From positions 1 to 46,093 of IMG/VR virus record IMGVR_UViG_3300036781_000124: DNA of 46,093 nucleotides. One strand, written 5' to 3'. The DNA comes from a virus. Under the pieces are notes generated by a model. That model was not told where the DNA came from and made no database searches. It worked only from the letters and a program-made list of their open reading frames with translations. Within the stretch, counting starts at the first letter, position 1. Each line of letters starts with the position of its first letter. Positions 28,611-46,093 of the stretch are shown here, in pieces. Position numbers and translations under genes: made by a program.

Positions 28611-28627
28611 CGTTTAATGACTAAACG
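28611..28627. repeat. Dispersed palindrome copy, 15/16 match
   Basis: CGTTTAATGACTAAACG, in the gap between the protease/scaffold and decoration genes. Confidence 0.8.
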
Positions 28628-30567: not shown

Positions 30568-30603
30568 ACCGGGGCGTGTGGCGAGATTGTCACACGCCCC
30601 GGT
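30568..30603. terminator. 13-bp perfect hairpin between convergent genes
   Basis: ACCGGGGCGTGTG (30568-30580) pairs perfectly with CACACGCCCCGGT (30591-30603) around a 10-nt loop. It sits 9 nt after the stop of the rightward gene and 8 nt before the end of the leftward one, so it can terminate either direction. Neither side has a long U tract. Confidence 0.75.
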
Positions 30604-31289: not shown

Positions 31290-31328
31290 GTATGTGTGTG
31301 GCTCCCTTGGGAGTTGTACCAAGTTAAA

Positions 31329-32186: not shown

Positions 32187-32221
32187 ATTGTCTACTCTCC
32201 CTTGGGGAATGTGCCCATTCT

Positions 32222-32340
32222 TTATATATAAGGCACAGCCCCCCGTGCCATTGTGCTATGTGCAGAGAGCTAATGTGCTATGTGCTACTGTGCCCTGTGC
32301 CAATGTGTACAGTGTCAATGTGCCCTGTGCTCATGTGCTC
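32222..32340 (-). repeat. GCACA repeat array with TATATATAA box (copy A)
   Basis: Read leftward from the last portal codons, about nine GCACA units recur every 7-10 nt (AGCACAT GAGCACAG GGCACATT ... AGCACAT AGCACATT ...). A short GGCAC...GTGCC hairpin and the element TGTGCCTTATATATAAAGAA follow. The last unit overlaps the portal stop. The array ends about 36 nt before the gpF-like ATG. Copy B at 45853-45945 shares the units and the 20-nt element exactly. It could be an activator-dependent promoter or an origin with iterons. Confidence 0.75.
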
Positions 32341-33914
32341 GATTTCGCCTCGGGCGGGGTTTTGATGATCCGGCGTGTCGCTTCCATGACCACGGCGGTA
32401 ACCGTGTCGTTAAGCTCGTCGTCATCAAACCGGATACCGCGCTCCGAGAATACCGAGAGGATCAGTTTGCGCGCTAACGTCGCATCGATGATAGACTCGT
32501 TGATCTCTTTGCCGTCCAGTGTAATCGCCGAGATCACCGCTCGTACCATGTCGCCGAGATCATGTTCGACAATCGGCGGAAATGTCACGTCTACGGTCGT
32601 GTCCACGGTTTCAGCGATCACGATAGTCTGTGTGTCGCCGTTTGGATCTTCCGCGCCTAGACCGGCAAGCGGTCCGGTTTCCGCCATTGCCGCTTGTGCG
32701 AGTACGTAGTTATGCATGATCGTTAGCTCGCCTTTCCACAATTCCTGACGCTCTCGGTACTTGAGCGCCATTGGTTGATTAAGGTTGTCGGCAGTAGCTA
32801 ACGCGCCTTGCTGTACGTCCATGCTGATATGCGGGTCGGAGGTCCCGAAGTTCGCCGCGACCATGTGACGTACCATTTTGGAATCTTCCGGCGAGATGTT
32901 AGCGCCCGCTGTTTGAAACGGCTTGAGACTCAACCCTTCGCCGGATGCAAACATACTGCCCGCCGCTGGAGCCGGGTTGGACTCCCTCAGTGCGCCTCGC
33001 GTAAGGCTACTTTGCAATCTGTTTTTTAGCGCCGTGGGAGAGGCTCCCGCTTGGGTCTTAGCTTCCCATGTGAACACGCGTAACGACCTCACCACCGCCG
33101 CCCAATCGTCAAGGTGAGCCGTATAGGAGAGCGCCCAACGTAACCCGGCGTTAGGCTCCGGGACGCCGTAGAGCATGGAATCGAGCCCGCCGTCGCGGAT
33201 GTGCTGTACCGGCGTGTCCCACTGGATCGGCACATCTCCAAGCGAAGGGAGGCGGACCGTTGGGGAGTAAGACAGGTCAGGGTAGAGGAACTCTTTCGGC
33301 GTCGTGTTGACGCTCCGCCCCATTGACACGCTAGCCAGATAGGAACGCCGGTAGAATTGTGGCGTGTCCCGGTCGTCAGGGTCGGTTATGATCTCAGTGA
33401 TTTGGTCGATAGGGATTTTGCGTACTGTCACTTTGCCGAATACCTTGGACGTAGCGTAGACAATAAACACGTTGCCGTCCGTAGATAGAGTGCGATCTGC
33501 GGCGGCAAGACGTTTGTGTGACGTAAAGACGCGCGCGTTACGGCTCCAGAAGTCTTGAATAACTTGATTCACACGGGCGTCGCGACCTTTCACACTGACG
33601 CCTTGACCAAATACATACCGGGTCGCCAGAAGGATCGCTTGTTTCACTAACGGATTCATCAAGAACGCCGCGCGCGAGACTTCGATAATCCGCATGAGTC
33701 CGGTACGCGTGATTAGTGCTTGACCCTCGGCGGAGAACGCGAGCCACCCGCGATCCTCTAACTCCAACTCGGCGGACGCGAGGGATTCCATTGCGGTAAG
33801 CGTGCGGTTGACCTGTGCCGAGCGGAGGTTGTCGAAACGCTCCGTCTCGCGCGCGTCCACGGGCGGGGAGTGAGTCATACCCGCGTCATGGGGTACCAGT
33901 ATTCTAGTCGTCAT
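32331..33914 (-). CDS. Portal protein
   Basis: The 527-residue protein has the SPP1/lambda-type portal layout: N-terminal RDARVNQVIQDFWSRNARVF, the wing with IPIDQITEIITDPDDRDTPQFYRR, the clip PLPSLGDVPIQWDTPVQHIRD, and GEGLSLKPFQTAGANISPEDSKMVRHMVAANFGTSDPHISMD (about 335-375), common in portals of this family. It forms the dodecameric ring for DNA entry. AAGGAG lies 12 nt upstream of the ATG, which overlaps the C39-like gene end. The final codons overlap the first GCACA repeat of array A. Confidence 0.85.
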   Translation of the reverse strand: MTTRILVPHDAGMTHSPPVDARETERFDNLRSAQVNRTLTAMESLASAELELEDRGWLAFSAEGQALITRTGLMRIIEVSRAAFLMNPLVKQAILLATRYVFGQGVSVKGRDARVNQVIQDFWSRNARVFTSHKRLAAADRTLSTDGNVFIVYATSKVFGKVTVRKIPIDQITEIITDPDDRDTPQFYRRSYLASVSMGRSVNTTPKEFLYPDLSYSPTVRLPSLGDVPIQWDTPVQHIRDGGLDSMLYGVPEPNAGLRWALSYTAHLDDWAAVVRSLRVFTWEAKTQAGASPTALKNRLQSSLTRGALRESNPAPAAGSMFASGEGLSLKPFQTAGANISPEDSKMVRHMVAANFGTSDPHISMDVQQGALATADNLNQPMALKYRERQELWKGELTIMHNYVLAQAAMAETGPLAGLGAEDPNGDTQTIVIAETVDTTVDVTFPPIVEHDLGDMVRAVISAITLDGKEINESIIDATLARKLILSVFSERGIRFDDDELNDTVTAVVMEATRRIIKTPPEAKSST

Positions 33915-34308
33915 TGTCGAGCTTTGCTCCTTCTAGTTTATGGATGCGTAGATAGCTAACGATTGTTGTAGGGTAATAGAGCGCCGTATACGCGCCTCCG
34001 GGATCGAATATACCACCGTCCCAAAGTAATGCCCAATGTCCGTAAGCGGGTAGGGGTTTGACACGTTGGACCGTGTGGAGAATAGCGCGCCCCGTGTGGA
34101 TGCGACCTAGCCCGCGCTCGCCTACGGGATGCATGCGGCGGGACGTGGATAGACCAAAGTGCGCGAGCGCCTTACGCATGTCGGCGGTAGTGAGCCCGTC
34201 AGGACATCCGATGTAACGGCGGACGGATGCGAGACTGACACCCGCCGCCATTGCTATACAACAGTGCCCACAAGATGAATCGTCGGTCTGTATTATGAGC
34301 TTGGGCAC
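33904..34308 (-). CDS. C39-like papain-fold cysteine peptidase
   Basis: The 134-residue protein (GTG start) has QTDDSSCGHCCIAMAAGVSL (catalytic Cys13), YGHWALLWDGGIFDPGG (His91, Asp102) and the expected spacing of C39/double-glycine-type peptidases. There is no transporter domain and no signal peptide. In phages such enzymes may process head proteins, cleave host proteins or act on peptides in the wall. Here it is encoded directly upstream of the portal, which suggests a head or lysis link (inference). Confidence 0.65.
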   Translation of the reverse strand: MPKLIIQTDDSSCGHCCIAMAAGVSLASVRRYIGCPDGLTTADMRKALAHFGLSTSRRMHPVGERGLGRIHTGRAILHTVQRVKPLPAYGHWALLWDGGIFDPGGAYTALYYPTTIVSYLRIHKLEGAKLDNDD

Positions 34309-34315
34309 GGTGGGA

Positions 34316-34450
34316 TTACCTAGCTTGTGTAGCTGCTATTGCACACGCCGCCGCCCAATAGATAGCCGCCCGCCAGTCTCGCGCAATCGCATAACTGATT
34401 GCAGCGCCCAAGGACTCGGCGGCTATCCCGTAGACCAAGAAGCGCGCCAT
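34316..34450 (-). CDS. Small membrane protein (44 aa)
   Basis: The frame opens at an ATG that overlaps the stop of the metallophosphoesterase gene as TAATG, giving MARFLVYGIAAESLGAAISY... with YAIARDWRAAIYWAAACAIAA, two short hydrophobic stretches. It stops 7 nt before the C39-like gene. Coupled start and hydrophobicity support a real gene. Function unknown; a holin-like role is conceivable. Confidence 0.5.
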   Translation of the reverse strand: MARFLVYGIAAESLGAAISYAIARDWRAAIYWAAACAIAATQAR

Positions 34451-35364
34451 TAGTCCACGACCCGATGCGTCATCTCCCATTTGCCGGACGGTTCAATGAT
34501 TAAACGCCACATGTTGCACCCGCCCGCCGACATGCCCATGACTTCCGCGTATGTCCCGTAGTGAGACAGGAACGAGGACGACATGACGCCGAGATAGTGT
34601 TCCGCTACCATAGAGCCCTGTGGCTCGTGTGGATACGGGCGACGTTCCCGTACGTCGGTTAGCATGAGACAGTCATGCAAATGCCCAACCCAGTACACAT
34701 GACTGTCGCCCTGCGTCATGAACCGGTGGAGCATTTGAGCTTTCGCGCCCTTGGTCCGAGAGCCCGATCCGCCGTGCCACAGAGAGTTGCGATGCGGGAT
34801 TTGACGCCCGTAATGGATATCAACAAACTGCTTACCGGACGAGTAAGGAGTCTTGAGGAGCGTGGCGAGAAGATGGCCGAGATCTCCGAACGCGCGCTCC
34901 GATCTACGCTCGTGATTGCCGCCGACAAACCCGAGGATACGATGACGCATCGGCGCGGCGAGTTCCACGAAATCGTAAACCTGTGCTTGGGGCTCTTTCG
35001 TGTTGGAGTAGGGGGAGGCGACCGATAGCACGGTTGCCGCGTCTACCATGTCGCCGCCGAAGAACACGAACCGGTTAGGCTTGGCTAGAATCCAGTCGCG
35101 GTACTCGATAAACTTCGCGACGTTACAGTGTTTGTGCCCGTACTGCACGTCTGTAATGTGGAGGACTTCGATACCGTCCGGGTAAACACGGGGGGAGACG
35201 ATCACCTTAACATACTTGGACTCGTCCCCGTAGAGCATATCGGTTTCAATCTTGATACCGGGCGCGGACTTGGGGGACATCGTCGCGAGCCGGTCTAAGT
35301 ACTCTGACGTGGGTACGGTCATAGGCAGACGCGGACCCGGTGAGGCGATCAGGGGTTCAGACAT
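34450..35364 (-). CDS. Calcineurin-like metallophosphoesterase
   Basis: From ATG 35364 (MSEPLIASPG...) it has 304 residues; longer frames run into the 52-bp repeat. All metal motifs are seen: HITDVQYGH (D72, H77), GGDMVD (D105, D108), GGNHER (N150, H151) and VGHLHD (H228, H230). These enzymes cut phosphodiesters in DNA, RNA or small nucleotides. The substrate is not evident. No good Shine-Dalgarno lies at the ATG, whose context is the direct repeat, so the true start is uncertain. Confidence 0.8.
   Translation of the reverse strand: MSEPLIASPGPRLPMTVPTSEYLDRLATMSPKSAPGIKIETDMLYGDESKYVKVIVSPRVYPDGIEVLHITDVQYGHKHCNVAKFIEYRDWILAKPNRFVFFGGDMVDAATVLSVASPYSNTKEPQAQVYDFVELAAPMRHRILGFVGGNHERRSERAFGDLGHLLATLLKTPYSSGKQFVDIHYGRQIPHRNSLWHGGSGSRTKGAKAQMLHRFMTQGDSHVYWVGHLHDCLMLTDVRERRPYPHEPQGSMVAEHYLGVMSSSFLSHYGTYAEVMGMSAGGCNMWRLIIEPSGKWEMTHRVVD
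34490..34506. repeat. Dispersed palindrome copy, 14/16 match
   Basis: GGTTCAATGATTAAACG, inside the 3' end of the metallophosphoesterase gene. Confidence 0.7.
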
Positions 35365-35413
35365 GTACCATTTTAACGCTAGATCTTGGCTAGGTCGATT
35401 CGGCGGGTAGTGC
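35362..35413. repeat. 52-bp direct repeat, copy 1
   Basis: Identical to 35857-35908, 495 bp away and in the same frame, encoding YPPNRPSQDLALKWYM in both. It contains the metallophosphoesterase ATG and the stop of the small basic protein gene. Confidence 0.95.
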
Positions 35414-35660
35414 GACGGGAACGGGACCGGTAGCGCTCCGCCTCTAGACGCTTGGGGGATTTGCTGTAGCGCACAGAAGCGGGGCGGCGAGTGCCATCGG
35501 GACGGCGGCGGACCTTGCAATTAGAGCAACGGCGCGCGCGCCCGTGTACGTAAGCGGACTTATTACAACGGCGTTCGGGATGTAAGCGGCAAACGATAAA
35601 CCCCTCCTCCCAATTGATCGCGCGGATACGTTGGGAGAGTGTGAGAGGAGGGGAGGGCAT
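35379..35660 (-). CDS. Small basic cysteine-containing protein, possible nucleic acid binder
   Basis: The 93-residue protein from ATG 35660, which follows the stop of the upstream gene (AAGGAG further upstream). CRLHPERRC...RRCSNC gives four cysteines, zinc-ribbon-like. The second half is extremely basic (RRRPDG, RYRSRSRRTTRR). It ends inside the 52-bp repeat (RIDLAKI, stop), so its C-terminus may be borrowed from the repeat. It may bind DNA or RNA; no family is recognised. Confidence 0.5.
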   Translation of the reverse strand: MPSPPLTLSQRIRAINWEEGFIVCRLHPERRCNKSAYVHGRARRCSNCKVRRRPDGTRRPASVRYSKSPKRLEAERYRSRSRRTTRRIDLAKI

Positions 35661-35664
35661 AGGG

Positions 35665-36720
35665 TTAAGACGGACTCCTTCGAGACTGATCGAGTAAAGG
35701 CACACCTTCCCAATCTACACACGTCCCGTAGTGCTCGTTAGCTAACTTACAGGCTACGCTACCGCAGTCACGAGGCGGTACAGAGTGCTTGCCCTCGTGC
35801 CCCAAGGGATGCGTACACTCGGCGACGACACAGTGTGGTATCGCGTTACGCCGCTCCATGTACCATTTTAACGCTAGATCTTGGCTAGGTCGATTCGGCG
35901 GGTAGTGCTCCAACGGACGGACGCACTCGGTTACTAGCCCCTTGTCGCACTTCGCCATCGGATGTACGGCGTCAAGGGCGGAGCGGTATTGCTCACATCC
36001 GCACTTGATCCAGTCACCGCACCGTCCCCAACCCGCGACGTTAGGACCGTCGAGCGGCTCAGCGTGATCCGCCCGCAGACACCCGCAGACACACAGAGGC
36101 GTAACCGTGGGCAACGGCTCCGACCGCTCTACGGCGTCAAGGTCGTAATCGAGATCCAACTTAACCACGCCCTCAGTCGCGTTGTGCTCGTCTACCGCCG
36201 CCATGAGCGACCCGCCCCATAGAACCGCCCCGGCGTTGTCGTCTGTCGGCACACGCCCTAACCGGTAATCCTCAAGCCACAGGAGCGCATGTTTGATTAC
36301 GTGGTTGACTCGCGCCACGATCCACTCGCGATCCGCTAGGCGCTTGGCGTAATCCTCGGGAGAATTGAGCGCGCTAAACGCTTTCTCCTTGTGCTTCACG
36401 TGACCGAGGGAGTAACGGTTGGCGAGGGAATCAATCGCTACACGAGGGACGCGCGAATACTCGGGGCATAGAGTCGCGGTTGCGCCCGAGGCAAACAGGA
36501 CAGTGGGCTCGTTACCGTGGTCCCGTGGGAGGTTGCCTAGACCACATACCCCGGCATGCCCTTTACGTCGTTGGCATGGACTAGGCGGCGTGTTTGCCGC
36601 AGCGTGATACAGTTGCCCACATAGCACGACTGTCTCGTGGCCGTGGTCACGGATCGGCGTAGTAGCCCTGTGCTCCGTATCACCGTGTGCATTCTTCATA
36701 GATCCGCAATCGTTGTCCAT
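35665..36720 (-). CDS. DUF5664-like dATP/dGTP diphosphohydrolase-type domain with extra cysteine-rich ends
   Basis: From ATG 36720 (GGAGAGGG 7 nt upstream), it has 351 residues. The middle (about 90-180), VPRVAIDSLANRYSLG, REWIVARVNHVIKHALLWLEDYR and DNAGAVLWGGSLMAAVDEH, resembles phage DUF5664/MazG-related nucleotide hydrolases, which have the same all-helical His/Glu pattern. The flanks have many Cys pairs (CVCGC, CGDWIKCGC, CVVAECTHPLGHEG), probably zinc sites. It carries copy 2 of the 52-bp repeat in its C-terminal region. Confidence 0.55.
   Translation of the reverse strand: MDNDCGSMKNAHGDTEHRATTPIRDHGHETVVLCGQLYHAAANTPPSPCQRRKGHAGVCGLGNLPRDHGNEPTVLFASGATATLCPEYSRVPRVAIDSLANRYSLGHVKHKEKAFSALNSPEDYAKRLADREWIVARVNHVIKHALLWLEDYRLGRVPTDDNAGAVLWGGSLMAAVDEHNATEGVVKLDLDYDLDAVERSEPLPTVTPLCVCGCLRADHAEPLDGPNVAGWGRCGDWIKCGCEQYRSALDAVHPMAKCDKGLVTECVRPLEHYPPNRPSQDLALKWYMERRNAIPHCVVAECTHPLGHEGKHSVPPRDCGSVACKLANEHYGTCVDWEGVPLLDQSRRSPS
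35857..35908. repeat. 52-bp direct repeat, copy 2
   Basis: Perfect copy of 35362-35413, inside the DUF5664-like gene, where it reads as part of the protein; copy 1 looks like the derived one. Confidence 0.95.
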
Positions 36721-36733
36721 GTATTCCCTCTCC

Positions 36734-36750
36734 TGTTTAATCACTAAATC
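36734..36750. repeat. Degenerate palindrome copy (12/16)
   Basis: TGTTTAATCACTAAATC, in the 28-nt gap between terminase and the DUF5664-like gene, next to its Shine-Dalgarno. Confidence 0.4.
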
Positions 36751-38362
36751 AGTATTTCGATATCGGCTCACTAATCTCAGTTTGCGAGAGATACCGGGTC
36801 TCGTCAAGTAGATTAGGCGCAAACGCTAACATACAACTCTCGGCGTAGTCAGGGGAGGGAATTCCCTTCTTGAGGAAGTCGCGCTTTGACTGCATGATGA
36901 TCGTCCCCTTGACCGTGGGGAGATATTGCAATCCGGCTAACTGCCCCGTCAATAGGTCTAACGCCTCCTTGCCCATTGTCGCCTTGTGGAACTCGACACA
37001 CTTCCTAATCGCGTCTTGGTGTCGGGTCGGCTCTAGGCAACTGTCCTCGAAACTCAACTGACCGTCCTTCACGAGGTCGCCCAATCCCCAATATAACTCG
37101 GCTTTGAGATTAGCGAACCGCTTGGGTTCACATGACGGTCTGTCTACATTGACCAATTGAACAATACCGCCCTGTCCCCATAGACCGAAGTGGTCGCCTA
37201 GAAAGAGAGCGAAGTTGTACCCGAGCCCGATGCTATCGACGTTAACGAGATCCACTGGACCGAGGGACAGTATCGCCCGTATGAGCGCGAGCACTGACGC
37301 TCTAGGGTCCGCCTCACCGAATCCCCACACGCCTAAGACGCGCGCGCCTATAGCCCATGTAACCACTGTGTCCGCGTCTCCCGATCCCGCTACGTCGATA
37401 CCGATACGCGAGGTCGAGTCTGGTACGTCCTCTCCTTCCTTGCGCGCGTCCATGAGAAGTGCTAACGGGAATAGAGCAAACTTACTCTGTGTCGGGAAGC
37501 GCCCTAGAATACGCGCCTGTACGAACGGGTGATCGAGCCCGAACTTACGCAACATCGCCCATACCCATCGGCGCGCTACCAGAGACGGCATAGGCATGAT
37601 GTCGAGACGCGCGTCGTCCTTGGTCCACGTCATCATGTCCTCTGGAGTTAGCCCGATCAGGTTAGGCGTATCAAACGCCGATATCGTAATCACGTTGTAC
37701 GACGGATCGGTCAACGCGGCAAACGCCGGACCTTCGGGCACGGTTGGATTCATGAGCCCGAGGAAGCGCACATAGCCTGCCGACATGAGCCCTTCAAGTG
37801 CCGTCCAGATAGACGGATGGATACCCAACGCCTCATCGAAGATCACGAGGATATGCCCGCCGTGGAATCCCTGGAACTTCACGCCCTCGTTGCCGCCTGT
37901 TACGTTGGTCGAGAATCCGTACGCCCAATAGTCCTCGTTGATCCGTAGCTCCGTGAGATTGGGCTCCGGGAAGTGAACCGTACCGAGTTGACGGGCGCGA
38001 CGTATGGACGCGTGGACCTCCCCCCATAGCGCGCGTTGCACTTGGTTGGATGTAGGCGCGGTAGTGATCACCTTCGCGTCATTGGGGAATCGGAGGAGCC
38101 ACCAAGGGACGAGGTTACCGGCTAGTCCGGTTTTGCCGGATGCGTGACACGCGGGTACGATAGTGCGGATGTTGTCGATAACGGATTGAGCTATCTCTTG
38201 CTGCTTGGCGTAGGGCTCGAATCCGAGTATGCCGGGTAGACAGAGACACGGGTCCGCGATGCACTCGGCTAGGTCCATCTCGGCTTGAGAGAGTGAGTCC
38301 TCGCGACTATCGCCCTCCGAGGCGTCATCAAGTAGCGAGAGGTCGTATAGCGTGGAGTCCAT
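36749..38362 (-). CDS. terL: Terminase large subunit
   Basis: The 537-residue protein has ATPase motifs ACHASGKTG (Walker A, 71-79) and ILVIFDEALG (Walker B, about 171-180), and nuclease acidic residues in IGIDVAGSGDADTV and VNVDSIGLGYN (RNase H-like domain). This is the packaging motor that cuts concatemers and threads DNA into the portal. Its start has no clear Shine-Dalgarno; a palindrome copy lies 50 nt upstream. The small-subunit candidate lies upstream, separated by one rightward gene. Confidence 0.92.
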   Translation of the reverse strand: MDSTLYDLSLLDDASEGDSREDSLSQAEMDLAECIADPCLCLPGILGFEPYAKQQEIAQSVIDNIRTIVPACHASGKTGLAGNLVPWWLLRFPNDAKVITTAPTSNQVQRALWGEVHASIRRARQLGTVHFPEPNLTELRINEDYWAYGFSTNVTGGNEGVKFQGFHGGHILVIFDEALGIHPSIWTALEGLMSAGYVRFLGLMNPTVPEGPAFAALTDPSYNVITISAFDTPNLIGLTPEDMMTWTKDDARLDIMPMPSLVARRWVWAMLRKFGLDHPFVQARILGRFPTQSKFALFPLALLMDARKEGEDVPDSTSRIGIDVAGSGDADTVVTWAIGARVLGVWGFGEADPRASVLALIRAILSLGPVDLVNVDSIGLGYNFALFLGDHFGLWGQGGIVQLVNVDRPSCEPKRFANLKAELYWGLGDLVKDGQLSFEDSCLEPTRHQDAIRKCVEFHKATMGKEALDLLTGQLAGLQYLPTVKGTIIMQSKRDFLKKGIPSPDYAESCMLAFAPNLLDETRYLSQTEISEPISKY

Positions 38363-38637
38363 AGGGATAGTTTAACTGAGGGCAGGGCAGAGGTCGAGCT
38401 AGGCAGGGAGGAGTTTAACGATTAAACGAATCGCGTAATTGTGTGGTACTGCGAGTACTAGGCATGCAATCAAGATGCCAAAACTCAATTTGCCGTGTTA
38501 TCAACGGGCTATGTGGAATGGGTACATTTGTTGCGAAACCATTGTGACTGGTACGTACTCTTAGAGAGCATAGACGTACTACGCCGGACGCGATGACGCG
38601 GAACCGGTAGTCAGATAGTGAGATAGGAGTAGTTGAG
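38363..38637. other. 275-nt gene-free divergent region
   Basis: Between the leftward terminase and a rightward small gene. It contains the palindrome copy at 38412-38428 and AT-rich stretches (ATTACGCGATTCG, AAAACTCAATTTGCC). I found no promoter with a convincing -10 in either direction, although both genes need one. Confidence 0.6.
38412..38428. repeat. Dispersed palindrome copy, 14/16 match
   Basis: AGTTTAACGATTAAACG, in the divergent region upstream of the large terminase. Confidence 0.75.
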
Positions 38638-38892
38638 ATGAGACGATTAGGAAAGAATGCAATAGCGCCAATGCGCCCGAGGCGAGTAGAAGCAGTATCC
38701 CCCGAGCTTGCGGTCAGGCTCGCTAAGTATCATCCGGTAGGGAGTGACGCGGGTATCATTGCGTCGGCAGAACTAGCGCTACACAAAGCGTCCGAGGCTG
38801 TAGGCGCGCTCTCGTCAGTGGAGAGCCTGTTACGTAAGGCGCTTCGTGGTATGACGGGCGGGGTACGCGCTAACCGGACTCAGGTCGCGTAA
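38638..38892 (+). CDS. Small hypothetical protein (84 aa)
   Basis: MRRLGKNAIAPMRPRRVEAV... is a basic N-terminus followed by helices (ELAVRLAKYHPVGSDAGIIASAELALHKASEAV). AGGAG lies 8 nt before the ATG, good support for a real gene. It is the only rightward gene between the two terminase genes. Function unknown. A hairpin (38911-38944) lies 18 nt past its stop. Confidence 0.65.
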   Translation: MRRLGKNAIAPMRPRRVEAVSPELAVRLAKYHPVGSDAGIIASAELALHKASEAVGALSSVESLLRKALRGMTGGVRANRTQVA

Positions 38893-38910
38893 GTTGGCAG
38901 ATATCGAATT

Positions 38911-38944
38911 GAGAGCCCTTGGGCTGTTACGCCTTGGGGCTCTC
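38911..38944. terminator. Hairpin at convergent gene ends
   Basis: GAGAGCCC (38911-38918) pairs with GGGCTCTC (38937-38944), loop 18 nt. It overlaps the 3' end of the leftward small terminase gene. No U tract follows on either strand, so termination strength is uncertain. Confidence 0.45.
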
Positions 38945-39649
38945 CTCGTCCGTGTGTGTGACCGGAGGCGCTAGGGGCACTGTCGGAGGTTGCCCTTGAC
39001 CGCCTCGCGCTTTGGCATCCTTGGCGCGTTTCATGATCTCCCCGATTCTGTCGAGCGATAGCGCACCGGTCACAGTGGCGTCTAGCTTAGTGGCGCTATC
39101 CAACCCGAGCAACGCCGCTCTACGATTCGACACTGCGAGTAATCGATCAATCACACCGCCGACTCCCGGTTGAACGGATTTCGTTTTACTAAACCCGCCC
39201 GATGCATTCGACCCGCTCTCGTTTGTAATCAGAGTCCCGCCATCCTGTTCCAATAGCTCACTCAGTTTAATCTCTAAACGATCCAGCTTGGACAGTTCCA
39301 GTTTCCGCAAATCCTCCGCCGACTCGTTTAGCTCCTTGCGCGTACGCCCGAGTGCCTTGGTCACGATTGCATGAGCTACCTTGGCGTCCAGCTTGGGGCG
39401 GCAGATATCAAACTCCACGCGCCCCGCTAGCTCCTCGGTGATTTGATCGTAACTCATACCGCGTAGGCGCAAATCCATAACGCGTTTAGCCCGGAGTCCG
39501 TTGGCGATACGTTGCTCCTCCGTTAACGGATCATCCCGCAACTCGCCTACCTGCTTTAACGCTGTGCGCTTGGCGAGCATCGCCTTCATGTGCTCCCGCG
39601 CTTTGGCGAGCTTGACAGGGTCAGTAATCTTTCGTCCTTTGGCGGGCAT
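38927..39649 (-). CDS. Probable terminase small subunit
   Basis: The 240-residue protein has RVMDLRLRGMSYDQITEELAG (about 55-75), a helix-turn-helix, then a helical oligomerisation segment (KLELSKLDRLEIKLSELLEQDG) and the Gly/Pro-rich C-terminus. The layout of HTH, helices and tail matches small terminases, and it is encoded just before the large subunit apart from one inverted gene. It would recognise the packaging site. The start has no clear Shine-Dalgarno. Confidence 0.6.
   Translation of the reverse strand: MPAKGRKITDPVKLAKAREHMKAMLAKRTALKQVGELRDDPLTEEQRIANGLRAKRVMDLRLRGMSYDQITEELAGRVEFDICRPKLDAKVAHAIVTKALGRTRKELNESAEDLRKLELSKLDRLEIKLSELLEQDGGTLITNESGSNASGGFSKTKSVQPGVGGVIDRLLAVSNRRAALLGLDSATKLDATVTGALSLDRIGEIMKRAKDAKARGGQGQPPTVPLAPPVTHTDEESPKA
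39264..39280. repeat. Palindrome copy, weaker (13/16)
   Basis: AGTTTAATCTCTAAACG, inside the small terminase candidate gene. Confidence 0.5.
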
Positions 39650-39697
39650 GACTTTAGACTAAGTCAATAGAGAGCCTAAGGCAAATCTGAGAGTTGC

Positions 39698-39714
39698 CGT
39701 TTAATGATTAAACG
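39698..39714. repeat. Dispersed palindrome, perfect copy (16/16)
   Basis: CGTTTAATGATTAAACG, the only perfect copy found. It ends 10 nt before the -35 of the leaderless promoter at 39725-39753 and lies between the divergent small-terminase and rightward clusters. Confidence 0.9.
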
Positions 39715-39724
39715 TTTTAGGGGG

Positions 39725-39753
39725 TTGACACCGAGGCATACTTTCCCTAAGAT
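39725..39753 (+). promoter_or_regulatory. Leaderless sigma70-type promoter of the rightward small-gene cluster
   Basis: TTGACA (39725-39730), 17-nt spacer CCGAGGCATACTTTCCC, TAAGAT (39748-39753), then 6 nt to the ATG at 39760. Same arrangement as 11199-11227, including the shared element CCGAGGCATAC. A leaderless transcript is expected. Confidence 0.85.
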
Positions 39754-39759
39754 ATTGAC

Positions 39760-39984
39760 ATGGCCGACAACACACCAACCACTCAGACCGGGAAGGTTTA
39801 CGCGACGTATGCAGAGGCACAGGAGGCGTACGAGACGCGGACAGATTGGGCACAGTTGGAAAGTGTGGAGTGTGCGTTTGAGATGTGCGGACAGAAGTTT
39901 AGACGTGAGGTTGTAGGGCAAACGGAATGCCGGGATTGCCTCGCCTGTGACTGCACGGGATTCTACGAAGGGGAAGAGAACTAA
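39760..39984 (+). CDS. Small zinc-binding protein, first gene of the rightward cluster
   Basis: MADNTPTTQTGKVYATYAEA..., 74 residues. CAFEMCGQKF...CRDCLACDC provides six cysteines, consistent with a small zinc finger. Its ATG lies 6 nt past the -10 of a strong promoter, so translation probably starts on a leaderless mRNA. Function unknown; as the first gene of the unit it may be a regulator or host-directed early protein. Confidence 0.7.
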   Translation: MADNTPTTQTGKVYATYAEAQEAYETRTDWAQLESVECAFEMCGQKFRREVVGQTECRDCLACDCTGFYEGEEN

Positions 39985-39986
39985 TC

Positions 39987-40151
39987 ATGATCTACGCGAA
40001 TAAAGAACGAGCGGTTGAAGTGGCTAAGTCACTCCGGGAGGACCCCATGCTAGGACGCCCTCATATGTTCGCGGCGTTGACTGTACACGGTTGGACGGTA
40101 CGCCATGATCACGGGTATAGCAATGGCGATGTATTGGAGTGGGCACGATGA
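39987..40151 (+). CDS. Small hypothetical protein (54 aa)
   Basis: MIYANKERAVEVAKSLRED... is followed by RPHMFAALTVHGWTVRHDHGYSNGDVLEW. It starts 2 nt after the upstream stop and overlaps the next gene (ATGA), so it is part of a coupled chain. No family recognised. Confidence 0.6.
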   Translation: MIYANKERAVEVAKSLREDPMLGRPHMFAALTVHGWTVRHDHGYSNGDVLEWAR

Positions 40152-40372
40152 CGGTCAAACGGCACTATCAATTGGTCGCGCTGACGGCTCAAGGCGGGCG
40201 AGATACGACTTATCACCACGGCAAAGAACCGGTAAGACGGCAATTGCGTAAGTACGGTAAGCAGGTTATCCGGTGTGAAGTGTGGGTACATCTTGGACCC
40301 GCCGTATGGAGACAGTTGTACTTGGGGCGTCCTGTGTTGTCGAGATTGTTTGACGAGGAGAACGCTCTATGA
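40148..40372 (+). CDS. Small basic hypothetical protein (74 aa)
   Basis: MTVKRHYQLVALTAQGGRDT... is basic, with RRQLRKYGKQVIRCEVWVHLG. I start at the ATG that overlaps the previous stop as ATGA. Possibly nucleic acid binding by charge; no motif supports it further. Confidence 0.55.
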   Translation: MTVKRHYQLVALTAQGGRDTTYHHGKEPVRRQLRKYGKQVIRCEVWVHLGPAVWRQLYLGRPVLSRLFDEENAL

Positions 40373-40602
40373 GGCGCACAGGTCCGAATCTGCAAAACAT
40401 CCCGATTAAGCTCTCGCCCGAATCCCGAGAAGTCGTCAACCGGGTTCGCGGGTTCTCAATTAACGGGATCGGGATTGATACGCCAACTCGTCGATGTGTG
40501 TTTGGCTGTGGACAGGTTGCCGTGGTTAACTCGGCGGACGTGGCTATCTGTACCGACTGTCGCGCGTATTTCGATAACGTAGAGGGAGTGATTGTAAAGT
40601 GA
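40369..40602 (+). CDS. Small protein with a DNA polymerase A-like motif plus zinc finger
   Basis: In this 77-residue protein, residues 2-27, RRTGPNLQNIPIKLSPES..., match the segment TGRLSSSDPNLQNIPSRSELG of family A DNA polymerases just before motif A, including this phage's own polymerase at 43974-45386. Then comes CVFGCGQ...CTDC, a four-cysteine finger. It overlaps neighbours on both sides (ATGA upstream, GTGA downstream). It is too short to be a polymerase; it could be a remnant or a protein that mimics or binds the polymerase primer-template site. Confidence 0.55.
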   Translation: MRRTGPNLQNIPIKLSPESREVVNRVRGFSINGIGIDTPTRRCVFGCGQVAVVNSADVAICTDCRAYFDNVEGVIVK

Positions 40603-40775
40603 CAAGATCCAGACGGGGCGAGAATCGGTTGTTTGCAGTGGGCGCGTTAGCCGTCGTGTTGATGTGGCTCCCCAAGGACGTGTTAGCGTTCCTCGGTTAC
40701 GCGGTCGCGGTTGTTACCGTGGCGTTGGTCGCGTTTATGTTGGGCGTGGGTCCGAGATTACGAGATCGGATGTAA
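40599..40775 (+). CDS. Two-segment small membrane protein (58 aa, GTG start)
   Basis: The GTG overlaps the previous stop (GTGA). The protein begins with RSRRGENR, then hydrophobic segments AVGALAVVLMWLP and FLGYAVAVVTVALVAFMLGV joined by KDV, a holin-like hairpin layout. Stop and next possible ATG overlap as TAATG. Lysis function is an inference only. Confidence 0.55.
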   Translation: MTRSRRGENRLFAVGALAVVLMWLPKDVLAFLGYAVAVVTVALVAFMLGVGPRLRDRM

Positions 40776-40843
40776 TGTTATCCGGCGTTGGAGTCGATGA
40801 GTTGTACAGTTTGATAGTTTCACCAAAGGAGAGAAGGGAAATC

Positions 40844-41305
40844 ATGAAACACACTGAAGGCACGTACACACTAAACAATTTGAATGAAGTATTGGGCATG
40901 GCGTCAGACCTGTTGTCCGGGAAACTGGCGGCGACATTGCCGGATACAACGTCGATACTACTCGACCCGCCGATTAAAGCGACATTGATCCGGGAGACGC
41001 TGTCGGACAAAAGCGAGGTATTCAATCTCGCAATCAATCCGGTCGGCGATGTCGGCGAGAATCCCGAGGACGTAACGGATTGGAAACAGGCGATCCGGTT
41101 ACTCGATCTCGTGTGGGCGGGCGGATGGCGTCCGGGTATCGAGATCCCTCAGGAGAATTGGGACATGGCGATTGTCATGCTCGACCTTGAGGACAATCTG
41201 CCCAATGCCGTTACGCGGGATTTAGTGATTAAACTCGGCGGCGAACGCATGAGCACGGAAGCGGTTATGCAGACGGGGAGCTTTCCGCGAAAGGCACAGG
41301 GATAA
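40844..41305 (+). CDS. Hypothetical protein (153 aa)
   Basis: I start at ATG 40844 with AAAGGAGAGAAGGGA just upstream, rather than at the coupled ATG 40775. MKHTEGTYTLNNLNEVLGMA... includes acidic helices (DWKQAIRLLDLVW) and a beta region. No family recognised. It is the largest gene of the rightward cluster, between membrane-peptide genes. Confidence 0.65.
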   Translation: MKHTEGTYTLNNLNEVLGMASDLLSGKLAATLPDTTSILLDPPIKATLIRETLSDKSEVFNLAINPVGDVGENPEDVTDWKQAIRLLDLVWAGGWRPGIEIPQENWDMAIVMLDLEDNLPNAVTRDLVIKLGGERMSTEAVMQTGSFPRKAQG

Positions 41306-41309
41306 AGCC

Positions 41310-41411
41310 GTGAGTCCCCGTTGGTGGAAACTAGTCCCGGTAATCCTGATCGGACTCGGGCTGTACGTGGCGGCAGTGTTACTCGGTAACTTGATGGGGC
41401 TAACGCAATGA
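41310..41411 (+). CDS. Tiny membrane peptide (33 aa, GTG start)
   Basis: A GTG start 4 nt after the previous stop gives MSPRWWKLVPVILIGLGLY... with one hydrophobic helix. It overlaps the next gene as ATGA. Below usual gene size, but the coupled chain supports it. Confidence 0.45.
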   Translation: MSPRWWKLVPVILIGLGLYVAAVLLGNLMGLTQ

Positions 41412-41548
41412 TGCAGGAATGGAGCGACAACCGGGGGCGGGGCAGTGGCAAACCGTCCCTCGGCGATTGGGTGGTTGCGGTGTGCTGCATACTGCCGGGG
41501 GCGATTGGTTGGGGCGTGACGCTATGGGGGTTGATACATGCCGGTTGA
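41408..41548 (+). CDS. Tiny membrane peptide (46 aa)
   Basis: A polar start (MMQEWSDNRGRGSGKPS) is followed by one hydrophobic helix (WVVAVCCILPGAIGWGVTLWG). Coupled to both neighbours by overlaps. Lysis or envelope roles are possible but unproven. Confidence 0.45.
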   Translation: MMQEWSDNRGRGSGKPSLGDWVVAVCCILPGAIGWGVTLWGLIHAG

Positions 41549-41903
41549 TGGATTCGTAGAGGAGTTGGGCGACTGTGACAGGTGCGGCGGGAGTCTCGGG
41601 TCCAAGACGTGGCACGGGGGTAAAAATGGCAATTGGGAGAGTTACAAAGATCACAATTGCATCGAGACGCTACGGGGGAGGATCGAGCGGCTAGAGGAGT
41701 GTAGTCATTCGCCTCAGCCGGTGATTCTGGAGGCGGATACTGTGACCGTCAGTCCGGGGCAGTTATGGTTATTGCTCCAGTTAGCAACGGTCTACGCGGG
41801 AGAGGGGCAGGGGTCGGACGAGTACGTACGGAAGTGTCGCGAAGTGTGCCCGCAGATTGTCCCGTTTCGCCGAGTCGTGTTGTGGGTTGATTGGACGTTG
41901 TAG
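41538..41903 (+). CDS. Hypothetical protein with zinc-like N-terminus (121 aa)
   Basis: MPVDGFVEELGDCDRCGGSLG... has CDRCGG, a half zinc site, and a second half with LEADTVTVSPGQLWLLLQLATVY and CREVCPQIV. It overlaps the previous gene by 11 nt. No family recognised. Confidence 0.6.
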   Translation: MPVDGFVEELGDCDRCGGSLGSKTWHGGKNGNWESYKDHNCIETLRGRIERLEECSHSPQPVILEADTVTVSPGQLWLLLQLATVYAGEGQGSDEYVRKCREVCPQIVPFRRVVLWVDWTL

Positions 41904-41927
41904 ACAGGGCACGCAAGGGATTAAAGC

Positions 41928-42173
41928 ATGCTTATTTTGTATCGGCTACTAGCCAACGGGCGTACGCGCAAAATGCCGTTTACGCCCGCGCGATGGGAGG
42001 AGGGAATCGCGCTACCTGAGGTCGTGTGCCAGGAGGGGAATGCAACCGGTACGCCTTGGTGGAAAGCGTACCCGGACTCGGTTGCACACGTCGAGGGATT
42101 ACGCCGGGTCACCCTCCTTAACCTCGTCAACTCCTCCGGTCGGGGATACCGGGGCGGCGTTAGAATCATCTGA
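41928..42173 (+). CDS. Small basic hypothetical protein, end of the rightward cluster
   Basis: This 81-residue protein (MLILYRLLANGRTRKMPFTPA...) has CQEGNATGTPWWKAYPDSVAHVEG and RYRGGVR at the C-terminus. Its 3' end overlaps, in antisense, the end of the leftward gene at 42099-42272. AGGG lies 12 nt before the ATG. Function unknown. Confidence 0.55.
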   Translation: MLILYRLLANGRTRKMPFTPARWEEGIALPEVVCQEGNATGTPWWKAYPDSVAHVEGLRRVTLLNLVNSSGRGYRGGVRII

Positions 42174-42272
42174 CGCTATGTCGTCATCCCCCGGAGGTCG
42201 GGAGCGCTTGGTCACATGGGAGAGCCTCTCCGCTCGCGCCCCGAGGAGCGTATCTAGCCTGCTCTTGCTCAT
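42099..42272 (-). CDS. Small acidic hypothetical protein (57 aa)
   Basis: The ATG at 42272 has GGAGAGG 5 nt upstream and overlaps the stop of the upstream gene as ATGA. MSKSRLDTLLGARAERL... becomes acidic and disordered (PPGDDDIASDDSN). It runs 75 nt antisense into the last rightward gene. Function unknown. Confidence 0.5.
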   Translation of the reverse strand: MSKSRLDTLLGARAERLSHVTKRSRPPGDDDIASDDSNAAPVSPTGGVDEVKEGDPA

Positions 42273-42556
42273 AGTTCCCTCTCCTCTCCCGTCGCTGGGT
42301 TGATGCATCGACTCCACTCATCGTGATACGTCCGGTCGTCGTTCGGCTCCTCGCACCAAGGGCAGATCGACCCGGCGTGTACCCGGTGCCAAGTGACAGG
42401 TTGCCAGTTTGCTAAAACGCGCTGTAGGACGCGTCGGATTCCCAGGAGCCACCTAGCTACCTCCGAGGCTCCACACGTGGCAAGGGCTACGGGGAACCGG
42501 GCAAGAATGCGCCAATTAGCGGACTGGAGCCATAGCCAAATTACGACCGCTACCAT
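42269..42556 (-). CDS. Membrane-anchored zinc-motif protein (95 aa)
   Basis: N-terminal hydrophobic stretch (MVAVVIWLWLQSANWRILA), then an amphipathic middle and ICPWCEEPNDDRTYHDEW-SRC, a CxxC zinc-like site. Its ATG overlaps the previous small gene. Function unknown. Confidence 0.55.
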   Translation of the reverse strand: MVAVVIWLWLQSANWRILARFPVALATCGASEVARWLLGIRRVLQRVLANWQPVTWHRVHAGSICPWCEEPNDDRTYHDEWSRCINPATGEEREL

Positions 42557-42690
42557 ACGACCGACCGGGGGCGGCGTTTCTTGATAGGCTCCGCCGCTGC
42601 CCGACTGGACGTGATCACGCCGACGATTAAGCCGACGAGAAACCCGGACAGGAAACAGAACGCCGCCGCCGAGATTAGGAAGATTACCAT
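42550..42690 (-). CDS. Tiny membrane protein (46 aa)
   Basis: MVIFLISAAAFCFLSGFLVG... is one or two hydrophobic helices followed by a basic tail (KKRRPR). It overlaps the neighbours on both sides (last codons of the upstream gene and the ATG of the next). Confidence 0.5.
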   Translation of the reverse strand: MVIFLISAAAFCFLSGFLVGLIVGVITSSRAAAEPIKKRRPRSVVW

Positions 42691-42821
42691 ACGCGCCCCT
42701 GATTCCGGCGAGCTTGAGCTAGGAGCATGCGCTCGCGTGCATCACACAGCCACTCGATAAACTCGACAAGCAAGAAGAATGCGCCGACCGTGCATGCCGC
42801 GATTCCGATTACGACTATCAT
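42684..42821 (-). CDS. Tiny membrane protein (45 aa)
   Basis: MIVVIGIAACTVGAFFLLVE... is one hydrophobic helix, then charged FIEWLCDARERMLLAQARR. The ATG overlaps the stop of the dUTPase-like gene as ATGA. First of three coupled small membrane-protein genes; together they may form a lysis or envelope module. Confidence 0.5.
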   Translation of the reverse strand: MIVVIGIAACTVGAFFLLVEFIEWLCDARERMLLAQARRNQGRVW

Positions 42822-43375
42822 CGTCCTGAACTCCCCGGAGGTACTTGCCAGCGCGTTGCCCGGTCGTCAGGCGGGTTATCAATAGGCAAGTCCTCAAACG
42901 GTTGCATGAGGGTTTGCGGATCGATCCAAGGCAGTATGAATAGTTGCGCGACCCTCTGCCCCTTGAGGACGGTTTGTTGCGCCTTGGTCGGATTCGTCAC
43001 GGGAATCCGTAGCTCCCCGCGATACCCGCTCGATACGACGCTAGCTGTAACCACGAGTCCGCGATCTGTGAAGACGCTTAGCCGACCGATTATCAAACCG
43101 ACCGTCCCAACTGGCACGGCGAGCCGGATTCCCGTAGGCACAAGTCCCGAGGAGTGGGGAGGCAGTGACACGTTAATGGACGCCGGGAGATCGGCTCCCG
43201 CGTCATCGAACAGGCGCGCGGTCGAGATGTCGAAAGTCTGCCCCTGATCGACGGACACGCGTAACAGGTCGGCGTTCGGGCGGACCTGGATAACCGGCAA
43301 TGACTCCTCGATAGTCTCCGCGTCGGGTAACTTCTCGGGCGGCGTAACCGGATCGGGCGATATTCGTTTAGCCAT
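42818..43375 (-). CDS. dUTPase-fold protein lacking the usual catalytic aspartate
   Basis: The 185-residue protein has trimeric dUTPase motifs: AGADLPAS (59-66, motif 1), GRLS (97-100, motif 2), VVSSGYRGE (113-121, motif 3) and GQRVAQLFI (139-147, motif 4). In motif 3 the catalytic Asp of G-V-V-D-x-x-YRGE is Ser115 here. The C-terminal motif 5 is not recognisable. So it may be inactive and act as a regulator (some phage dUTPases do), or have changed specificity. It sits in the small-gene region before the polymerase genes. Confidence 0.75.
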   Translation of the reverse strand: MAKRISPDPVTPPEKLPDAETIEESLPVIQVRPNADLLRVSVDQGQTFDISTARLFDDAGADLPASINVSLPPHSSGLVPTGIRLAVPVGTVGLIIGRLSVFTDRGLVVTASVVSSGYRGELRIPVTNPTKAQQTVLKGQRVAQLFILPWIDPQTLMQPFEDLPIDNPPDDRATRWQVPPGSSGR

Positions 43376-43380
43376 TAAAT

Positions 43381-43737
43381 CTATTTAACCTCCTTGGGTT
43401 GGGTAACTCGGATCTCGTAATACGGCGTGAACACGGTTGCAGCTTTGACGACCTCGGCACACTGAGTCGGCGTGAACTTGTGAGCACTCATGAGGTAGTC
43501 GTTAAGCGCGTCGGCGGTAATCCCGGATCGACCGGATTTTGAATACGTGACTTTCTCCCCCGTCGCGAGTTCCCGTTCCCACGCGGCGGCGTCCCGCTCC
43601 CCAAACCCGAGCTTGGCACGTTCGCCGAGTTCCTTCTCCGCCTTGTGCAGCGGAGAGAGTTTAGCCTTCACGTCCGCGAGTTGTTTGAGGATCGTGCTAA
43701 ACTCCTCAGCGGGTACGGCGAATTGTTTACGAGCCAT
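43381..43737 (-). CDS. Hypothetical coiled-coil protein (118 aa)
   Basis: An N-terminal helical segment (FSTILKQLADVKAKLSPLHKAEKELGERAK) is probably coiled coil. The rest is SKSGRSGITADALNDYLMSAHKF and a beta tail. The start follows the previous stop directly (TAA then ATG). No family recognised; placed between the zinc protein and the dUTPase-like gene. Confidence 0.55.
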   Translation of the reverse strand: MARKQFAVPAEEFSTILKQLADVKAKLSPLHKAEKELGERAKLGFGERDAAAWERELATGEKVTYSKSGRSGITADALNDYLMSAHKFTPTQCAEVVKAATVFTPYYEIRVTQPKEVK

Positions 43738-43977
43738 TTATTTTGATCTCCTGTAGCGGGCGTTAATCTCTCTGTGGTGTTTCATATAAGCGTCAACCGG
43801 GAGCCCGAGCGCGTGTTCCTCGCATTCGTCTGCCCGGTCGAAGTCTTCCTCGTCGTCGGCGTAATTCACCGGGGTAGACGCACATGTAAAGCACTTCCCC
43901 GCCCCCATGGAGTACTCTCGCCCCGTACACGCGGCGTTACACAGGCGGCAATATCGATCTAACGCATTTGCACTCAT
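43738..43977 (-). CDS. Small zinc-motif protein coupled to DNA polymerase
   Basis: The 79-residue protein from an ATG that overlaps the polymerase stop as ATGA. CRLCNAAC...CFTCAS gives two CxxC-like pairs. The C-terminus is acidic, then basic (HHREINARYRRSK). The tight coupling suggests it may work with the polymerase. Confidence 0.6.
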   Translation of the reverse strand: MSANALDRYCRLCNAACTGREYSMGAGKCFTCASTPVNYADDEEDFDRADECEEHALGLPVDAYMKHHREINARYRRSK

Positions 43978-45386
43978 CGTTCTAACATCTCCCAATTCTC
44001 CTCGGTCATACCATAGCCCGCTGAGATTGGCGCAAGGAGACGGCAGCAATTCGGTATTACCTCTTCTGCCGCCCACTGGAGGAACTCGGCGAGGATCGAG
44101 GGGCGTCCTTCAAACACTAGCTCATCGTGGATTTGGATCAACGGGACGAGCACATACGGGTCGTGTGGAAACTGTGATTGGATCTTACACACGCGCTCCC
44201 ACAGGATTATCATAATGAGCTTGAGCAAATCCCCGGCTGTACCTTGGATCGGCGTATTGGAGGCGAAACGATTCCCTTCCTCGGCGATCTTGGGTACAGC
44301 GGATTTTACCTCAGGGATGTAACGAATTCGTCCGAATAGCGTATACACGAGACCGTACAAACGTGCTCTCCGGTGTTGCTCGTTTTGGTAGTCCCCGATC
44401 TCGTAATACATGTCCGGGGCATAGAACGTATCAAGAAAGTCGGCGCAGTGTTGATCGGTCCATACGTCCGGGTCGGCTCCCAATCCCACCATTCGGACGC
44501 TGAGCCCTCCGGGAGTGATTTCATAGATCGATCCAAAGTTTCCGATCTTGGCATTGGAGCGTTGGTCCTTTCGATCAAGGTTCTCGGTTAACCATGATTT
44601 GAGTTTCTTCTTATCGACGTTAACCGGGTTGCCGTATTCACCGGGCCAATTGAAAAACTTTGCCGCTGAGATCGAGTGGATGTCCGCTTTCTTGTTGAGC
44701 GCCTCTAGCAGACGGATGGATTTTGAATAGTGAGCCGCTAGTACAATCTCGATCTGGGCAAGATCGATAGCGCCCAACGCATTACCGAACGACGGGACAA
44801 AGCATCCACGGACCGCGCGTCCGAGTTCAGAACGTGACGGGATGTTCTGGAGGTTAGGATCGGAGGACGACAAGCGCCCGGTGAGAACTTGGCAGTTGTT
44901 GAATGTCGTATAGATGCGCCTAGCCGGATCGAGACGCGCGCGAGCCGCCAACGGGACCGCGTAGGTGGTTAGGAGTTTGCTACAGCCGCGCCAGTCGCGG
45001 AGATGCGGGATACATGTATGTTGCGCCTCCAGGAACGCGAGCGCGTCATCGTCCACTTTGTAGCGCGATTGGGATTTAGTTAACCGGATGTTGCCGGGAT
45101 CTAGGTCTAATCCGCCTCGGGAGCGTTTACCGAATAACACGCGCTCGACTTGGTCCGGGGAGCCGATGGCGAAATCGTTACGACCAACCGCTGAGTAGAA
45201 CGCGGTTTCATGTTCAAGCATTAGCCCGCGTACACGGTCGGCGAGTCGGTCGGCGGCAAACGGATCGAACTCAATCCCGGTCCGCATCATTTGACACAGC
45301 ATGGGTACGATACCGTGATCGAGCCGAGACGCGTTGCCGGGATTTGGCTCTCCACAGAGGAGAATACCGCCATGGAGAGTTTGCAT
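43974..45386 (-). CDS. Family A DNA polymerase, polymerase half
   Basis: The 470-residue protein contains TGRLSSSDPNLQNIPSR (169-185), motif A AIDLAQIEI (D208), motif B RSNAKIGNFGSIY (R276, K280, F284, Y288) and motif C IHDELVF (H420, D421, E422), plus a thumb-like N-terminal 150 residues. No exonuclease domain is present: that half is encoded at 527-2002. Together they match SPO1-type polymerases. Four pieces lie between them around the join (membrane protein, hypothetical, repeat array, 132-aa protein). No clear Shine-Dalgarno precedes the ATG. Confidence 0.9.
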   Translation of the reverse strand: MQTLHGGILLCGEPNPGNASRLDHGIVPMLCQMMRTGIEFDPFAADRLADRVRGLMLEHETAFYSAVGRNDFAIGSPDQVERVLFGKRSRGGLDLDPGNIRLTKSQSRYKVDDDALAFLEAQHTCIPHLRDWRGCSKLLTTYAVPLAARARLDPARRIYTTFNNCQVLTGRLSSSDPNLQNIPSRSELGRAVRGCFVPSFGNALGAIDLAQIEIVLAAHYSKSIRLLEALNKKADIHSISAAKFFNWPGEYGNPVNVDKKKLKSWLTENLDRKDQRSNAKIGNFGSIYEITPGGLSVRMVGLGADPDVWTDQHCADFLDTFYAPDMYYEIGDYQNEQHRRARLYGLVYTLFGRIRYIPEVKSAVPKIAEEGNRFASNTPIQGTAGDLLKLIMIILWERVCKIQSQFPHDPYVLVPLIQIHDELVFEGRPSILAEFLQWAAEEVIPNCCRLLAPISAGYGMTEENWEMLER

Positions 45387-45422
45387 AGTATGTAAGAGTG
45401 GATGTGTGGATACAGTCGCGGG

Positions 45423-45438
45423 CGTTTAATGATTAACG
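45423..45438. repeat. Palindrome copy with 1-bp deletion in one arm
   Basis: CGTTTAATGATTAACG, between the 132-aa gene and the polymerase half. It would be a perfect site with one more A. Confidence 0.65.
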
Positions 45439-45831
45439 AGTAAAACCCATGGGCGCGTACGGGATTGCTGATCTCCCGCCCCATCCCAACCGGATACGTT
45501 GGAAGTAGCGCCCCCGGTCCCCCCGGTTTGCTACGTACACCGGTTCGGTTGAGACGCCGTTGTCAAGTACCTCAATACGGCTGTGGTGTGCGGGGCACGC
45601 GGTACACATGCGGTTCTTACAATACGCCCGCCCGCGCTTCTGACTCTTAGACACGCCGCACGTATCGCAATACGTGGAGACGATGACCTTACTGCGTCTG
45701 ACGCCTTTGGAGACTTCCCCAACCTGTTGTTGCAACTTGGGCGCTACTTTGCCGAACCTCTCTACCGCGCCTCTCGCTTCCATCGTGCTACCTGTCAACG
45801 CGCTTAACGCTGCTAATAACATCGCTCTCAT
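45433..45831 (-). CDS. Zinc-motif protein between the polymerase halves (132 aa)
   Basis: MRAMLLAALSALTGSTMEAR... starts with a short hydrophobic helix, then a basic linker and CDTCGVSKSQKRGRAYC-KNRMCTACPAHH, rich in Cys and His (zinc ribbon). GAGGAA lies 9 nt before the ATG, just downstream of repeat array B. Not HNH-like. Function unknown; it could be host takeover or polymerase-associated. Confidence 0.6.
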   Translation of the reverse strand: MRAMLLAALSALTGSTMEARGAVERFGKVAPKLQQQVGEVSKGVRRSKVIVSTYCDTCGVSKSQKRGRAYCKNRMCTACPAHHSRIEVLDNGVSTEPVYVANRGDRGRYFQRIRLGWGGRSAIPYAPMGFTR

Positions 45832-45852
45832 GTGTACTCGTTCCTCGTTTCT

Positions 45853-45945
45853 TTATATATAAGGCACAGGGGGTAGTGCTATTGTGCTGTGTGCTATGAG
45901 ACAGTGTGCCCTGTGCTCATGTGCTGTGTGCCAATGTGCCGTGGG
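45853..45945 (-). repeat. GCACA repeat array with TATATATAA box (copy B)
   Basis: Read leftward: GGCACATT GGCACAC AGCACAT GAGCACAG GGCACACT ... AGCACAC AGCACAAT AGCAC, then a short GCAC...GTGC hairpin and TGTGCCTTATATATAAAGAA. The last 20 nt are identical to copy A at 32222-32340. It lies between the stop of the join-spanning gene and the 132-aa gene, 22 nt before that ATG. Confidence 0.8.
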
Positions 45946-46093
45946 TTAGACTTTCCTCCTCGCCTCCTCTGCAAAAATCTGCAATATCTCCGGGTCGATC
46001 CCATTGGTAACCGTTAACACTTCCGACATCTCGATTACCTGGATCACTTCTCCCGTGTCGTCGTCCTCAATCTCTTTGATCGCCCGCTCCGTG
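45946..46093 (-). CDS. 3' end of the join-spanning gene (second version)
   Basis: This frame gives ...AIKEIEDDDTGEVIQVIEM...IFAEEARRKV then TAA at 45946-45948. Bases 45950-46075 equal bases 1-126. After that the codons differ but conserve meaning (Lys for Arg, Ile for Val, one synonymous), so this is a natural variant, not a sequencing error. It completes the gene at 1-356. Confidence 0.75.
   Translation of the reverse strand, partial: TERAIKEIEDDDTGEVIQVIEMSEVLTVTNGIDPEILQIFAEEARRKV
45950..46093. repeat. Terminal redundancy with bases 1-144
   Basis: Bases 1-126 are repeated exactly at 45950-46075; the last 18 bases differ at five positions. It shows a circular or terminally redundant molecule assembled past the join, with sequence variants present. 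Confidence 0.85.

Follow-up and report, generated by a model that had tools for sequence, protein, structure and literature searches.

Iterons are longer repeats that lie about two helical turns apart, and the met boxes of E. coli are palindromic operator words of 8 bp, set in tandem at 8-bp spacing and each bound by one dimer of the ribbon-helix-helix (RHH) protein MetJ, a repressor. In pSM19035, parS consists of 7-10 heptads that overlap promoters and are bound by omega2/ParB-pSM, likewise an RHH protein (PMC9499535). A further class is formed by intergenic direct repeats of the heptamer TAACTGA in Beggiatoaceae, Cyanobacteria, and Bacteroidetes, for which translational control has been proposed (PMC4679880). 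The window analyzed here is a complete virus record (G000; 46,093 bp, 56% GC) with nearly all recognized genes on the minus strand, and it carries two arrays of GCACA words, A and B, which most likely represent a matched pair of promoters under protein control and not origins of replication. The arrays and the genes around them are as follows.

32331-33914, minus strand: portal protein gene, upstream of A (phrog_10963, E=1.1e-57)
32338-32244, minus strand: array A, nine GCACA units plus GCACG and three degenerate slots
32232-32249, minus strand: GGCAC-N8-GTGCC inverted pair linking array A to its box; its length is conserved, its interior is not
32218-32237, minus strand: box A, TGTGCCTTATATATAAAGAA, a putative core promoter; TTATATATAA at 32231-32222; box start to ATG 45 nt
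31329-32186, minus strand: MuF-like head morphogenesis protein gene, downstream of A (PF04233, E=1.3e-18; PHROG head morphogenesis)
3-356, minus strand: 118-aa gene, which in a circular genome would lie upstream of B; the ORF runs on from 45949, with the stop at 45946-45948
45939-45875, minus strand: array B, seven GCACA units plus GCACT and one degenerate slot
45849-45868, minus strand: box B, the identical 20-mer; TTATATATAA at 45862-45853; box start to ATG 31 nt
45433-45831, minus strand: gene for a 132-aa protein with a Cys-rich segment, downstream of B
43974-45386, minus strand: family-A DNA polymerase, polymerase domain; second gene downstream of B (PF00476, E=2.9e-73)

The ends of the record have 143 nt in common at 97% identity (1-143 and 45950-46092), so the genome is probably circular or terminally redundant. 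Within this repeat the first 126 nt are nearly all identical and the last part has diverged, which suggests either terminal redundancy or a circular genome put together from strains that differ slightly. Array B lies between the 118-aa and 132-aa genes, within a stretch holding a seemingly split polymerase: a UDG plus PolA N-terminal part (527-2002) and the PolA polymerase domain (43974-45386) align to neighboring segments of phrog_17, and the family-A enzyme thus appears to be divided between two genes. In a circular genome, these halves would be separated by array B and two small genes. The Cys-rich segment of the 132-aa protein is possibly zinc-binding; its match to Zn_Tnp_IS91 is weak and below the cut-off (E=0.005).

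Both arrays, as the original prediction had it, are real and end in an identical 20-mer, of which the minus strand holds two exact copies (32237-32218 and 45868-45849), and both elements, in the same orientation, separate a stop codon from the start codon that follows. Near matches to the 20-mer are not expected by chance (0 in 100 shuffles, even allowing 3 mismatches), and the two boxes contain the only A/T runs of at least 11 nt, which are also the longest, in this 56% GC genome. Counted on the minus strand, GCACA occurs nine times in 120 nt at A and seven times at B, and at most three times elsewhere, the maximum in 110 nt among 200 Markov-1 surrogates being four. The two-spacer pattern GCACANNNGCACANNGCACA, with up to 2 mismatches, has seven matches, all of them inside the arrays (0.06 expected).

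With the leading T of TTATATATAA taken as offset zero (32231 for A and 45862 for B), the units of A lie at -107, -99, -92, (-84 and -77, degenerate), -69, -62, -54, -47, (-40, degenerate), -32, -25, and -17, and those of B, in the same register, at -77, -69, -62, -54, -47, (-40, degenerate), -32, -25, and -17. The GCAC starts at -17, -25, -32, -47, -54, -62, and -69 are common to the two copies, and the slot near -40 is degenerate in both; at -77, B has a GCAC unit and A has ACACA, beyond which A extends on to -107. Successive units are thus 7 or 8 nt apart, mostly in alternation, so that every second unit recurs at 15 bp, instead of the 7-10 nt predicted. The last word is inverted in both arrays (TGTGCC) and touches the box. 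The first unit of A (32338-32334) had been said to overlap the portal stop codon and to have been kept despite coding constraint; it in fact abuts the TGA (32333-32331) as part of the last two codons, which makes the constraint argument a weak one.

Position-by-position comparison of the two copies in a gap-free register separates what was kept from what drifted: the GCACA cores are identical at 38/39 positions and TGTGCC plus the box, i.e., the 20-mer, at 20/20, against 12/32 for the spacers and 5/30 for the sequence downstream of the box. Fisher's test of cores against spacers (p=1.6e-8) is optimistic, as the word categories were taken from these same sequences, whereas the contrast with the post-box sequence is independent of that choice. 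Because cores and box were kept while spacers and downstream sequence diverged, the comparison indicates that the words, their spacing, and the box are under selection in otherwise diverged copies. This contrast, with conservation stopping at the box, is the strongest evidence for what appears to be a functional composite. The GCAC/GTGC hairpin described earlier is present as an inverted pair, GCAC-N8-GTGC, in A and B; its 8-nt interiors differ (GGGGGGCT and TACCCCCT), and many shuffles folded as well as the two elements did (z -1.29 and -0.54). Rfam matched no RNA element, and with folds unremarkable against shuffles, an RNA-element reading was dropped.

We hold, with slightly better than even confidence, that a promoter preceded by a protein-binding array is present at each locus and that the pair co-regulates the head and replication blocks; promoter activity, a binder, activation, and co-regulation are what we infer from the arrangement. 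The AT box TTATATATAA(AG) would be the core promoter element, -10-like if the host is bacterial and a TATA box if it is archaeal. The binder, encoded by phage or host, would be a protein that oligomerizes cooperatively on the GCACA words, each 7-8 bp taking up one subunit or dimer; from its first site, 17 bp ahead of the box, it would control RNA polymerase there. One regulator could in this way govern both the head block, from MuF onward, and the replication block, from the 132-aa gene and the PolA domain onward. With the array placed ahead of the box and no -35-like element detected, activation seems more probable than repression; the lack of any sigma-70 match at either array or box (-35 and -10 hexamers 16-18 nt apart) is consistent with a factor-dependent start. 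The center of the box is about 27 and 41 bp from the ATG in the two copies, and an archaeal TATA box lies about 26 bp upstream of the start, so the distances would be compatible with one. The argument that an archaeal host would prove a TATA box was nevertheless dropped once bacterial relatives were found (see below). The promoter half of the original prediction is consistent with the orientation of both copies, their short distance to a start codon, the end of conservation after the box, the lack of a sigma-70 match, and the conservation of cores and box against drifted spacers. That the sample comprises two copies in one genome, for which no close relative was found, counts against the promoter reading, as does the failure to recognize an array-binding protein among the virus proteins scanned.

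The other half of that prediction, replication origins in which initiator-binding repeats adjoin an AT-rich unwinding element, is quite improbable. Short direct repeats do adjoin the genome's two longest A/T runs, B is among replication genes, and the array-bounded segments show a modest difference in third-position GC skew (0.057 vs -0.039); however, the skew shifts gradually from about 26 to 37 kb without switching at 32.2 kb, and GC skew has no sharp switch at array A or B, which leaves an origin call by skew unsupported. Additionally, a pitch of 7.5 bp is unlike that of 17-22-bp iterons, and the copies are locked to gene orientation at a similar distance from the start codon, A being within the head block.

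The pitch, as read from the sequence, is not helically phased; therefore, an oligomer that follows the groove is favored as the binder, by inference, over ordinary activators lined up along a single helix face. Neither an RHH protein nor another candidate for array binding was recognized among the virus proteins scanned, small ORFs being partly covered. The Zn-HTH protein (30612-31322), which the original prediction named as a possible binder along with the helicase and the ParB-like protein, has no relative in the databases searched, and its single-sequence structure model (mean pLDDT 39.5) is fairly good only for a helical segment at about residues 124-180. Directly after its gene lies a strong 16-bp hairpin, ACCGGGGCGTGTGGCGAGATTGTCACACGCCCCGGT (30568-30603), which is likely a terminator.

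The virus also encodes a ParB-like protein of the HTH type (2018-3352), and this, together with a probably circular genome and the heptads of parS in pSM19035, speaks for a phage-plasmid with centromere-like arrays, whose partition protein would bind them and also repress the promoters. We nonetheless consider such parS-type arrays very improbable. The usual targets of HTH ParBs are palindromes, and 13-bp palindromes are dispersed through this genome at 22 sites; moreover, ParA and an RHH protein both went unrecognized in the virus. The palindrome in question, TTTAATSATTAAA, mostly flanked as GTTTAATSATTAAAC, reaches those 22 sites with up to 2 mismatches (0.34 expected), among them 7414-7426, 20882-20894, 24681-24693, 28613-28625, 39700-39712, and 45425-45437. 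Eight of the 22 precede listed gene starts by no more than 60 nt and others are inside genes, a distribution that resembles dispersed, stoperator-like operators and, if so, a second regulatory layer. Separately, an exact 52-nt direct repeat (35362-35413 and 35857-35908) recurs 495 bp apart in the region of ORFs 34450-35520 and 35665-36822.

Searches with the DNA polymerase, terminase, and MuF proteins found no close relatives; those found share the head module only, at about 30-43% amino-acid identity. Methanoculleus virus Blf4 is the best match of the portal and capsid genes among the phage records searched, and relatives of the MCP also occur in a Microbispora contig and an Anaerolineaceae MAG; because head-module relatives span these three, the host may be bacterial or archaeal. 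No match was returned by an exact 18-mer scan of viral contigs, by blastn of array A against phages, or by blastn of array B against plasmids, and the array-box element is absent from the distant relatives. Since the portal and MuF frames overlap in 17 of the 29 related loci with both genes recognized, leaving no space for such an element, A has probably been added in this virus lineage. What five of the relatives do carry is degenerate 7-8-nt repeats of other words at gene junctions.

L088:12917 (Anaerolineaceae MAG): array of ATCAGTG
L013:3606: array of ATCAGTA
L015:7590: array of GATCAGT
L037:1938: array of GATTGCG
L008:6872: array of GGTGACA, running to the contig end

These five loci are the main argument for widespread intergenic repeats that act on mRNA, e.g., as sites of a single-strand RNA-binding protein, or that are passive; the class is a described one with a proposed role in translation (PMC4679880), and the unrelated L005 has GCACA at 8,7,8,7 spacing beside other heptamer arrays. 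We regard this explanation as unlikely for the window, as an adjoining TATATATAA box is found at 0/5 of the relatives' loci, whereas here an identical box at a fixed distance, with kept words and drifting spacers, points to joint constraint on array and box. Furthermore, a 4-unit GCACA array pattern occurs in 0/400 sampled genomes of the phylum of L088, and the array would fall outside the mRNA of the downstream gene if transcription starts at the box. The same loci also count against the promoter reading, in that heptad-like arrays lacking such a box indicate that a promoter need not accompany every array. Given that five relatives carry junction arrays of a known class, those of the window may have been recruited from intergenic heptamer repeats, from which their box and register distinguish them. 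Two results of the GCACA-array pattern scans were judged convergent, as they share no protein with the virus: the GCACA array of L005, which has heptamer arrays of its own, and GTGCACATTGCACAC in one unrelated phage family of 37-38% GC (L089-L094), where GTGCACATTGCACACTTGCACAGTGCACAC immediately follows a stop codon, with another, partial copy about 150 bp downstream.

A more specific version of the promoter reading, though a rather unlikely one, is that a phage regulator polymerizes along the 7.5-bp-pitch, non-helically-phased GCACA array and thereby activates two promoters that consist of the box alone, so that head assembly is coupled with replication. To our knowledge, no array-activated promoter class of this kind has been described in phages. 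If right, the promoter reading as such would provide a compact cis-element of word, spacing, and box that links replication with structural gene expression in a lineage without known regulators. A heptamer-type intergenic array joined to a promoter-like box also bears on the open question of the role of such arrays.

Set against known systems, iteron origins share with the window direct repeats beside an AT-rich stretch and differ in their longer, more widely spaced units, the window elements having a promoter-like position. MetJ operators are likewise tandem short words at promoters, which in the window are putative, but met boxes are palindromic and 8-bp spaced, unlike the units here. By its 7/8-nt pitch, the layout instead resembles the pSM19035 heptads or the intergenic heptamer repeats. 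The latter likewise present short tandem words at a pitch of about 7 nt in the space separating a stop codon from the following start; however, their main example adjoins start codons, with an AT box undescribed there (PMC4679880), and many sets of the same word occur per genome, in contrast to the window's two sets, in register and both with a box. The RHH-bound heptads of pSM19035 appear closest by analogy, being consecutive short non-palindromic words in several copies at a 7-bp pitch (7/8 in the window). Their word is WATCACW rather than GCACA, and the window differs further in its alternating pitch with one degenerate slot, its attached AT box, the single orientation of all units but the inverted last, and the absence of a recognized RHH protein or ParA among ORFs of which the small ones were partly scanned. 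In pSM19035 the arrays overlap promoters of different operons, with one dimer per word, and it is this arrangement that the two arrays and their promoter-like boxes would most nearly parallel.
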